From an uncultured Flavobacteriales bacterium (GTDB lineage Bacteria > Bacteroidota > Bacteroidia > Flavobacteriales_D > Crocinitomicaceae), in NCBI GenBank assembly GCA_913054135.1, contig CAJXJK010000008.1:124001-188000 (forward strand): DNA of 64,000 nt, given 5' to 3'. Positions 16,592 to 19,476 of the stretch are shown here, piece after piece. The notes beneath the pieces are model-generated. The model saw only the letters and a program-made list of their open reading frames with translations. It was not told the origin of the DNA and ran no database searches. Each line of letters opens with the position of its first letter. Position 1 is the first letter of the stretch. The position numbers were made by a program, and so were the translations under genes.

Positions 16592-16993
16592 TTAGCTTTT
16601 GCAATTGTCACAAATTCCTTTTGCTTGAACCTCAAAAGAGTCAATTTGAAATGATGGATGATTAATTACTGGCATTTGCTGGGGTTCTAGGCAATACGTT
16701 TCATTGCAATCTGTGCACAAAAAGTGAATATGATCGTGATGATGAGCTTCACTCTCACATGAATGCGAACAAAGAGCATACTTCTTCGATTCTCCATTAA
16801 TCAGAATTTCATGAAGGATTCCGACATCAATAAATTTCTTAATGGTACGATAAAGAGTGATGCGATCATGCTCTCCTAATTCCTTCTCAACCATGCCCAT
16901 ATCAATGGCATTCTCATGGCTTTGAAAGACATTTAGTACATCAGTTCTAAACGAAGTGACTCTTAATTTTTTAGATTTGAGTAAATTTTTCAT
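16592..16993 (-). CDS. Fur-family metalloregulator, probably Zur-like
   Basis: 133 residues. The N-terminal winged helix (TDVLNVFQSHENAIDMG, then the recognition helix DRITLYRTIKKF) is followed by the metal-binding half: His-rich segment 84-90, Cys93/Cys96 (CTDC) and Cys128/Cys131 (CDNC), the structural zinc pairs of Fur/Zur. The frame extends to 17047, but that would place the start inside the operators; the ATG at 16993 matches the family N-terminus. It is divergent from a TonB-dependent receptor, with two 21-bp inverted repeats between them, so it is inferred to repress both itself and the receptor. Zinc rather than iron is suggested by the short length and the His-rich receptor, not proven. 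Confidence 0.88.
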   Translation of the reverse strand: MKNLLKSKKLRVTSFRTDVLNVFQSHENAIDMGMVEKELGEHDRITLYRTIKKFIDVGILHEILINGESKKYALCSHSCESEAHHHDHIHFLCTDCNETYCLEPQQMPVINHPSFQIDSFEVQAKGICDNCKS

Positions 16994-16997
16994 ACCT

Positions 16998-17018
16998 AAA
17001 TGCAACATTATTGCATTT
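16998..17018. promoter_or_regulatory. Fur/Zur-type operator 1
   Basis: A 10-1-10 inverted repeat: AAATGCAACA, T, TATTGCATTT, with 9 of 10 positions complementary. The arms contain the 7-1-7 spacing typical of Fur-family sites. It begins 4 bp upstream of the repressor ATG and so overlaps its translation start region. Confidence 0.7.
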
Positions 17019-17028
17019 ATTAAATTAC

Positions 17029-17049
17029 ATTTGCAACATTGATGCAAAT
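17029..17049. promoter_or_regulatory. Fur/Zur-type operator 2
   Basis: A second 10-1-10 inverted repeat: ATTTGCAACA, T, TGATGCAAAT, 9 of 10 complementary. Its centre is 31 bp (about three helical turns) from that of operator 1. It overlaps a -7 box TACATTTG (17026-17033) and ends 2 bp before the receptor ATG, so repressor binding would block initiation of the receptor gene. Confidence 0.7.
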
Positions 17050-17051
17050 AT

Positions 17052-19268
17052 ATGCGATTATTTTTAATTTTCCTTTTCGTTATTCTTGGGTTTTCCGCTA
17101 TCGGACAATCTTATGAAGGAGTTGTCATTGGCAATGACCCGCTTAAGACTCCTATTCCGTTTGCAAAAATTGAATTGATTGACTTAGGTAAGATACTTAT
17201 TACCGATAGCTTAGGGAGATTTGTCCTGGATGAAGTTTCAGCAGGGCACTTGCATGCTCATGTAAGCGCTAACGGCTTTGACGAAGCGCATGTTGATATC
17301 CACTTAAACCCTAAAGTTAATATTGAAATTATCCTGTTCTCAGCACACCATGAATTAGATAAGGTATTGGTATCTAATGATGGACGTTTACAAAGAGAAA
17401 GTATTAGCAATGTAGAAACACATTCTTTTAACTCACTCAATCAAATAGCCACTCCCACTCTGGCAGATGCCCTAGAAAATATAAACGGCGTAACCCAATC
17501 AAGCACTGGGGCCGGAATCAGTAAACCAGTGATAAGAGGATTCTCTGGTTCGCGAGTATTGACTTATGTAAATTCATTAAGAATCCAGAATCAACAATGG
17601 GGTGCAGATCATGGTTTAGCAGTTACCAGTTTAGGAATTGGAAGTGTTGAAGTGATAAAGGGACCCGCAAGTTTAATGTATGGCGCAGATGCAATTGGTG
17701 GAGTGCTTTACTTTGTAGATGAAGCTTACGCTATGAAAAACACTTTTGAAGGCTCTGTTAGAACTAGTTTTAATACTGCTAATATGATGACAACAAATCA
17801 GGGCGGTATAAAATGGTCAAAAGAAAAGTTAAAGATTAACGCATTCATCTCACATGACAATGCTGCAGATTACACTTTGGCATCAGGATCACAATTATTA
17901 AATAGTAGATATAAACAACAAGCAGCTAAAATCTCAATTGGATACAACTTTAAGAAGAGTGTGACCAATTTCAGATACAATTATTATTCTGGGCGTATTG
18001 GTCTACCTGGGCATACGCATGATTCAATTGTAGATTTAAATTCATTCATCACAGAAACTCAAAACAGAAAAGACAATGTGCCTGCCCAAGTAATCAGCAA
18101 CCATTTCTTCAATTTAGAACACAAAATATTTCTTGAGAAACATGAATTTCTAATCGCTCTTGGAAACACAAACAATAAACTGAAAGAGCATGAAGAAAAG
18201 TTCTTTTTCCCTGATATAAATATCAACTTAAACAATACTTTGGGTCATGTAAAATGGAAATATAAGTTGCATGAGAAATTCAATTTAACTCTTGGCACAC
18301 AGAACATGTTGCAATTCAACACTAATGACCCAATTGCTCCTGAAGTACTCGTTCAGGATGCAAGAACGATAGATATTGGTACTTACCTTTTACTTGACTT
18401 TCAAAAAGGAAAATGGCGATTAAAAACTGGAGGGAGATTTGATAGAAGAATGATTGAAGTTGCAGATCAGTCTACTTTCTCCTTTAACGGGATCAATTAT
18501 GCAGCAGGATTTTCAAGATTAGAAAAAAACGCAGACGTAAGAATGAATATTTCTAGTGGGTTTAGGGCTCCAACTTCATCTGAACTGCTCAGTGATGGCG
18601 TTCACCATGGATCAAACAGATATGAGTTAGGCAATGTTAATTTAACAACTGAAAAATCTGTGCAAATTGATGCTTCTTATGCATTGCACCTCTCTGATTT
18701 AGAATTAATCGTGAATCCTTTCGTCAATTTTTTAAGCGACTTTATTTACATAAATCCAACTGATTCAATTATTGATAATCGTCAAGTATTTGAATACAGT
18801 CAAATTGAGAATGCAATTATGTATGGTTCTGACTTTGGCATCCACTATCATCCACACATAGCACATTGGTTGCACTTAGAGAGCAGTTTTAGCACCATAT
18901 TTGCTGAAGATCAAAACAAGACTCCTCTTGCTTTAATTCCTCAAACATCTATAAATTCTCAAATTAGAATGAACTTCAAGATGAAAAAGAAGTTTAAGAT
19001 CAAAAACGTGAGCCTACAGCACATCTATTACTTCAAACAAAACAGAATAACCTCATTTGAACTTGGAACAAATGCTTTCAATTTGCTCAATGCTTCACTA
19101 AATGGAGCAATAGGAGATCAAGAAAATTTGAAGTTCTCAATTGGAGCTCGAAACTTATTAAATGCAGAATACATCAACCATTTATCAAATCTAAAACATC
19201 TTGGAATCCCTGATATTGGGATTAATGGGTTTATAACAATTGAATACAGTTTTAACGGAAAAAAATAG
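17052..19268 (+). CDS. TonB-dependent outer-membrane receptor, probably for zinc
   Basis: 738 residues. A signal peptide (to about residue 18) is followed by a carboxypeptidase-like regulatory domain (about 20-110), a plug domain (ISKPVIRGFSGSRVL, VEVIKGPASLMYGADAIGG) and a 22-strand-type barrel ending in an aromatic strand. His-rich loops (LPGHTHDS, GVHHGSNRYELG, HYHPHIAHWLH) recall ZnuD-type zinc receptors. The gene sits across two operators from a Fur/Zur-like regulator and is followed 4 bp later by a small Cys-rich lipoprotein gene, making a metal-regulated uptake unit likely. The leader is extremely short because the operator lies 2 bp from the ATG. Alternative substrates (iron chelates) cannot be excluded. 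Confidence 0.88.
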   Translation: MRLFLIFLFVILGFSAIGQSYEGVVIGNDPLKTPIPFAKIELIDLGKILITDSLGRFVLDEVSAGHLHAHVSANGFDEAHVDIHLNPKVNIEIILFSAHHELDKVLVSNDGRLQRESISNVETHSFNSLNQIATPTLADALENINGVTQSSTGAGISKPVIRGFSGSRVLTYVNSLRIQNQQWGADHGLAVTSLGIGSVEVIKGPASLMYGADAIGGVLYFVDEAYAMKNTFEGSVRTSFNTANMMTTNQGGIKWSKEKLKINAFISHDNAADYTLASGSQLLNSRYKQQAAKISIGYNFKKSVTNFRYNYYSGRIGLPGHTHDSIVDLNSFITETQNRKDNVPAQVISNHFFNLEHKIFLEKHEFLIALGNTNNKLKEHEEKFFFPDININLNNTLGHVKWKYKLHEKFNLTLGTQNMLQFNTNDPIAPEVLVQDARTIDIGTYLLLDFQKGKWRLKTGGRFDRRMIEVADQSTFSFNGINYAAGFSRLEKNADVRMNISSGFRAPTSSELLSDGVHHGSNRYELGNVNLTTEKSVQIDASYALHLSDLELIVNPFVNFLSDFIYINPTDSIIDNRQVFEYSQIENAIMYGSDFGIHYHPHIAHWLHLESSFSTIFAEDQNKTPLALIPQTSINSQIRMNFKMKKKFKIKNVSLQHIYYFKQNRITSFELGTNAFNLLNASLNGAIGDQENLKFSIGARNLLNAEYINHLSNLKHLGIPDIGINGFITIEYSFNGKK

Positions 19269-19272
19269 AAAA

Positions 19273-19476
19273 ATGAAAAAAGTAGGGTTTATAGCTGCAG
19301 CTGCAGTATTAACAATTTCGTTCGCTTCATGTAAAAAATGTCATGACTGTCATTATGATGATAACGGAACTGAAGTAGAAATCGGTGAGTTATGTGGTGA
19401 TGAATTAGAAAGTGCCGAGGCGAACGGATGGGCACTTCAGGATACGGTGGTAACTGTGCACTGCGAAGAGCACTAA
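19273..19476 (+). CDS. Small cysteine-rich lipoprotein
   Basis: 67 residues. The signal peptide ends at a lipobox FASC, then KKCHDCHYDD supplies a Cys-x2-Cys pair and His, with a further Cys in GELCGDE and HCEEH at the C-terminus. The frame can be opened upstream to an ATG at 19240, but that lies inside the receptor gene; the ATG at 19273, 4 bp after the receptor stop, gives a canonical lipoprotein signal. The mature part of about 48 residues with Cys/His pairs suggests a disulfide-stabilised or metal-binding surface or periplasmic protein. Co-transcription with the receptor suggests a metal-binding accessory role (inference). Confidence 0.75.
   Translation: MKKVGFIAAAAVLTISFASCKKCHDCHYDDNGTEVEIGELCGDELESAEANGWALQDTVVTVHCEEH

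Follow-up and report, generated by a model that had tools for sequence, protein, structure and literature searches.

The region between a Fur-family repressor gene and a divergently oriented gene for a TonB-dependent receptor very probably holds a Zur operator pair, which would make this locus a real and ordinary Zur switch. Judged by their letters, positions and conservation, the two inverted repeats found there are highly likely to be operators of a Zur-type zinc repressor that would control its own gene and a divergent operon for the receptor and a small lipoprotein. A preliminary description had placed Fur/Zur-family operators between the repressor and the receptor; the evidence below supports this and, through residues, regulon and motif, narrows the candidate family to Zur (zinc). 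Positions are those of the window, i.e., the whole stretch of 64,000 nucleotides that was analysed. The features are as follows.

16592-16993, minus strand: gene of the putative Zur-type Fur-family repressor, 133 aa from the ATG at 16993 (Pfam FUR 41.2 bits, cut-off 23.1)
16998-17018, no strand: operator 1 (zur side), inverted repeat, core 17000-17016
17029-17049, no strand: operator 2 (receptor side), core 17031-17047, the repeat extending to 17026-17052
17026-17033, plus strand: candidate -7 box TACATTTG of the receptor promoter (TAnnTTTG); a plus-strand box lies at the receptor-side site in 19/23 two-site loci
17045-17052, minus strand: candidate -7 box TATATTTG of the zur promoter (again TAnnTTTG; 13/23 two-site loci)
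17052-19268, plus strand: TonB-dependent receptor, ZnuD-like, 738 aa (Pfam plug 70.6 and barrel 82.9 bits, over the cut-offs)
19273-19476, plus strand: small Cys/His lipoprotein, 67 aa, starting 4 bp after the receptor stop (conserved family A2)

The probable operator pair and its conservation

Operator 1 reads AAATGCAACA-T-TATTGCATTT and operator 2 reads ATTTGCAACA-T-TGATGCAAAT, both matching at 9/10 in a 10-1-10 register, with centres at 17008 and 17039, 31 bp apart, as the preliminary description had it. Its placement of the sites also holds: operator 1 begins 4 bp upstream of the start codon of the repressor (ATG, 16993-16991), and operator 2, which lies over a -7 box, stops 2 bp short of the ATG (17052) of the receptor. 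Operator 1 can alternatively be read as a perfect 9-5-9 repeat, and the symmetry of operator 2 widens to 13-1-13 at 85% (17026-17052). Lone 21-mers of such symmetry are common and unremarkable, numbering 6 in the window versus 4.55 (sd 2.04) in 20 second-order Markov shuffles; a pair of them no more than 60 bp apart was seen once in the window and in 0/20 Markov-shuffled windows.

Searches of the genome from which the window comes located strong boxes only at the zur/receptor locus. The exact 21-mer form occurs once (control 0), and the core WTGCAACANTGTTGCAW with up to one mismatch is found at two places, operators 1 and 2 (control 0). Looser patterns yielded 35 sites versus 14 in the control for TTGCAACANTGTTGCAA with up to three mismatches, and 36 versus 1 for a degenerate form with up to two, which includes one extra site at one mismatch on contig C3; since the reversed-pattern control preserves base composition and not dinucleotides, we did not extend the regulon of this genome to such weak sites, one of which (C8:66215) lies inside a gene. 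In the genome search proposed earlier as a check, the box is strong at this locus only (two sites versus none in the control at up to one mismatch).

In relatives, both the box and the gene arrangement recur. The repressor search gave matches in 67/99 genomes (own included), and the orthologue loci that we read are the best 30 matches of that search. In 28 of these best 30, the divergent ORF has an N-terminus like that of the window's receptor, as judged from the N-terminal sequence and not by a model scan; the exceptions carry another ORF (L020) or a COG0523-type GTPase (L033). Beside every one of the best 30 orthologues, the core WTGCAACANTGTTGCAW reaches 14/17 or more, twice or more in 23 and with one site only at 14/17 in the other 7, whereas shuffles of the same 30-locus regions reached 14 in 8/3000 cases. 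With up to one mismatch, WTGCAACANTGTTGCAW gave 44 sites, spread over 39 genomes, versus 9 for the control, and across 399 genomes of the order, the two-site pattern gave 47 matches in 42 genomes versus 4 for the reversed pattern. A same-genus genome has three boxes, not two, between zur and the receptor gene (L031, L127; G002:C94), 31 and 30 bp apart. At another locus (L111, G042:C89), near a MerC-like gene, two boxes stand at the start of a repressor homologue of only ~32% identity, which suggests that the box may reach a wider Zur group.

Identity of the regulator and genes behind the box

The repressor reading starts at the ATG at 16993, where the aligned orthologues begin; a longer reading from a TTG up to 17047 is not favoured. 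Two CxxC pairs form the structural zinc site of Zur-type proteins, and both pairs of the repressor (C93, C96 and C128, C131) are invariant in a profile of 29 sequences, as are H61, C75 and H84. The residues H61, C75, H84, C93 and C96 align with H77, C88, H96, C103 and C106 of E. coli Zur (PDB 4mtd), whose regulatory ligands are H77, C88, H96 and E111; the fourth of these, Glu111, falls in an alignment insertion. PerR carries K73 and V87 at the positions of H61 and C75. Overall sequence hardly appears to separate the repressor from Fur and PerR: the 29-sequence profile scores E. coli Zur at 40.8 bits versus 40.2 for PerR and 38.9 for Fur (a lead of 0.6 and 1.9 bits). Because it discriminates so poorly, the argument for Zur is built on residues and regulon. 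A scan of the genome contigs with the single protein returned two distant actinobacterial homologues only, which we set aside. There are two FUR-family genes in the genome, and the other one (C4:281475) reaches 95.7 bits for the FUR family and E 1.7e-13 against Fur structures; since it matches Fur better, we rejected the window repressor as the genome's Fur (iron).

The genes behind the box in relatives were read at 24 of the 44 sites, in 19 stretches; 16 further sites are at zur loci, and the remaining four belong to G001, G007, G011 and G019. Sixteen of the 24 inspected sites precede genes that could belong to a zinc regulon; the other eight, which lie inside genes or before genes without an evident zinc link, may be chance occurrences. 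Many of these neighbours were named by sequence judgement and not by a model scan, and we mark the two accordingly. Behind the box are COG0523 GTPases at L075 (scanned; 553 bits against the ZigA model, cut-off 600), L081 and L085 (by sequence), MerC proteins at L074 and L080 (scanned), and TonB-type receptors at L073 (scanned), L077, L078 and L085 (by sequence). The list continues with GTP cyclohydrolase FolE (L076), dCTP deaminase (L078), a DUF4625 protein (L083), thioredoxin-reductase-like proteins at L074 (scanned, below cut-off) and L090 (by sequence), and a DsrE-like protein at L077 (by sequence). Further GTPases (L109, L113, L114 and L120) and MerC-like proteins (L111, L116 and L123) come from the two-site pattern, all by sequence only. 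In one relative (L073:1744-4896), a Zur box separates a gene for a DtxR/MntR-type regulator from the divergently oriented gene of another TonB receptor.

In the window's own genome, three COG0523-domain matches are weak (23-35 bits, versus 194 bits for the relative L075). Its ZnuA-type gene (L192, G000:C4:157150-157962) adjoins ABC transporter ORFs and an MntR-like gene, and no Zur box above 12/17 was found within the 3.8 kb read; given this neighbour and the lack of a box, the system probably serves manganese. A literature search, mostly without subscription papers, returned no described Zur regulon for this bacterial order, and a conserved predicted box and locus make such a regulon searchable.

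Two other readings of the regulator and the repeats have to be weighed against this evidence. A regulator that senses iron, manganese or peroxide, in the manner of Fur or PerR, with a receptor that imports heme or an iron chelate, would fit the single-sequence matches, i.e., only Fur chains in the PDB, and PerR and Fur as the best NCBIfam models (all far below cut-off); heme-receptor models also come second for the receptor in NCBIfam (110.5 bits), as heme receptors do after ZnuD in the PDB. We nevertheless consider it unlikely in view of the Zur-type cysteine C75, invariant in 29 sequences, the separate gene of the same genome that is closer to Fur, the ZigA-like GTPases behind an identical box, and the prediction of that same box for a Desulfovibrio ZUR, as an excerpt of that work gives it. 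The repeats might instead act as RNA hairpins, either attenuators or stability elements, rather than as protein operators, and the stretch, taken as single-stranded DNA, does fold into two hairpins (-12.1 kcal/mol, z -4.1). Such folding is expected of any inverted repeat, whereas the letters TGCAACA recur, beyond what pairing would explain, between genomes and before different genes, and the repeat letters equal the Zur box predicted in the excerpted work; we regard hairpins as very improbable. The regulator is thus best read as a Zur, a reading drawn from residues, regulon and motif together.

Promoter overlap and operator spacing

According to the excerpted part of the source, the flavobacterial sigma-A -7 box is TAnnTTTG (PMC9723704). 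Boxes of this form lie on both strands at the receptor-side site in 11/23 two-site loci, and a receptor-side -7 box is present in 40/47 order-wide two-site matches, for which the search pattern itself required only TTTG. Since operator 2 coincides in part with -7 boxes on both strands, we infer that RNA polymerase would be excluded at both promoters, and the repression in both directions suggested in the preliminary description is, at this level, well supported. In the proposed switch, zinc would be the co-repressor, and zinc-bound Zur dimers would occupy both operators. Zur on operator 2 would then mask the -7 boxes of the two divergent promoters, and Zur on operator 1 would block the receptor promoter's upstream portion together with the position where the zur transcript begins; RNA polymerase would thereby be shut out in both directions. 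When zinc falls, Zur would leave the DNA; the ZnuD-like receptor and the lipoprotein would be made and bring zinc, their presumed cargo, across the outer membrane, and more Zur would be made, resetting the switch.

The distance between the operators is restricted, yet 31 bp is one of several permitted values. Among the 47 two-site matches, 24 have spacings of 27-32 bp, one of 35 bp and 19 of 37-40 bp, while 21, 22 and 45 bp occur once each; 44 of the 47 thus fall at 27-40 bp, with only one of these at 33-36 bp. For the statistic, 7/47 matches were dropped for want of a -7 box, and the other 40 were reduced to 29 genus-by-spacing points from 16 genera. Spacings of 33-36 bp account for 1/29 of these points versus 8.3 expected, and the Rayleigh R at 10.5 bp is 0.60 (p 0.001 versus a uniform distribution over 27-40 bp), with kinship only crudely controlled. 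The spacing had previously been taken as three helical turns and hence as a sign of cooperativity. Spacings in relatives are mostly 27-32 or 37-40 bp and skip 33-36 bp, without being fixed at whole turns. Cooperativity between the operators is possible, and either contacts on one helix face or promoter geometry could be the cause of the spacing.

That the operators act independently, with the spacing set by promoter geometry (operators on the -33 and -7 regions) and not by cooperative contacts, seems to us almost as plausible as not. The range of spacings from 27 to 40 bp and the -7 box embedded in the receptor-side site (40/47) speak for such independence, and at spacings of 37-40 bp, a TTG within operator 1, in its right half, would sit 18-21 nt upstream of the -7 box. 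The gap at 33-36 bp, in contrast, fits binding to one helix face, and only 8 of the 14 listed loci with a spacing of 27-32 bp and a -7 box have the T that gives a TTG in the left half.

The receptor, its lipoprotein and known systems

ZnuD (NF038289) is the best NCBIfam model for the receptor, and ZnuD is also its best PDB match (4rdr, E 7.5e-16). Because the model score of 147.6 bits is far below the cut-off of 950, we call the receptor ZnuD-like and not ZnuD. The lipoprotein gene behind it, likely part of the same operon, represents the least familiar element of the locus, an unnamed family of small Cys/His lipoproteins. Ten sequences share the invariant residues C20, C23, C26, H27, C41, H63, C64 and H67 in a CxxCH...C...HCxxH pattern, and in three further relatives the first spacing is longer. 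In two relatives, short His/Cys-rich and probably exported proteins are encoded directly upstream of the receptor (L181:1882-2241 and L188:846-1163); a Pfam scan gave no match for them.

The lipoprotein gene follows the receptor gene in 12/16 loci read. A profile search found the family in at least 44/99 genomes, at least 34 of them at E below 1e-17, and in 27 of these 34, the match is within 4 kb of a repressor homologue. Conversely, among the candidates scored, at most 62 per genome, no lipoprotein match at E below 1e-17 appeared in 7 of the 29 genomes that gave the best repressor matches. Of the seven unlinked lipoproteins, six directly follow a receptor-like ORF of 742-747 aa, and the seventh, close to a contig end, is accompanied by a receptor-like C-terminus. 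One genome (G058) carries two boxes before the receptor-lipoprotein pair, with no repressor homologue nearby, while no box at 14/17 was seen upstream of the other 5/6 pairs that are not beside a detected repressor homologue. With boxes at only 1/6 unlinked pairs, the receptor-lipoprotein pair appears to exist elsewhere without the Zur switch.

A Pfam scan of the window lipoprotein matched no model, and its AlphaFold2 model (mean pLDDT 75) gave no fold match (best E 1.1). Among candidates that we set aside, Zn_ribbon_TFIIB hit one of ten members at E 0.055, which is too weak, a solved chain matched the profile at E 0.73, taken as chance, and the PG1828-family model (NF050142) reached 22.7 bits (cut-off 50) over residues 1-22 only. 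From the Cys/His pattern and the link to Zur, we infer that the lipoprotein may bind zinc, with a c-type heme at the CxxCH as the alternative. If zinc is the ligand, Zur would control a two-part importer, widespread in the order, in which the ZnuD-like receptor has its own zinc-binding lipoprotein of ~48 residues passing zinc to or from it, and a single operator would provide the -7 region for each of the two divergent promoters; we advance this importer tentatively, at somewhat below an even chance. Our literature search found no description of such a two-part importer, and the lipoprotein family, for which Pfam has no model, offers a testable candidate for a role in handling zinc at the outer membrane.

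Compared with known systems, the regulator shares the five aligned residues with E. coli Zur, the Glu111 position being unaligned, and the E. coli Zur DNA box differs from the box described here. The receptor has its best solved match in Neisseria ZnuD and yet stays far below the NCBIfam cut-off for that protein. In Caulobacter crescentus, Zur represses the TonB receptors ZnuK, ZnuL and ZnuM, which are needed under zinc starvation (PMC4176598); it likewise acts on TonB receptors, but through another operator sequence, e.g., GATGTTATATCATAACAAT, and the excerpted part of that source mentions no lipoprotein partner for these receptors, unlike the arrangement here. The letters of the box equal those of the ZUR box ATGCAACnnnGTTGCAT that a prediction places ahead of znuABC-zur in two genomes of Desulfovibrio (PMC545781). 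As far as the excerpt of that source goes, the predicted ZUR_D regulon and the present locus have in common this box, a Fur-family regulator and zinc uptake genes; the Desulfovibrio box stands before the znuABC-zur operon, whereas here two boxes lie between the divergent zur and TonB receptor genes.
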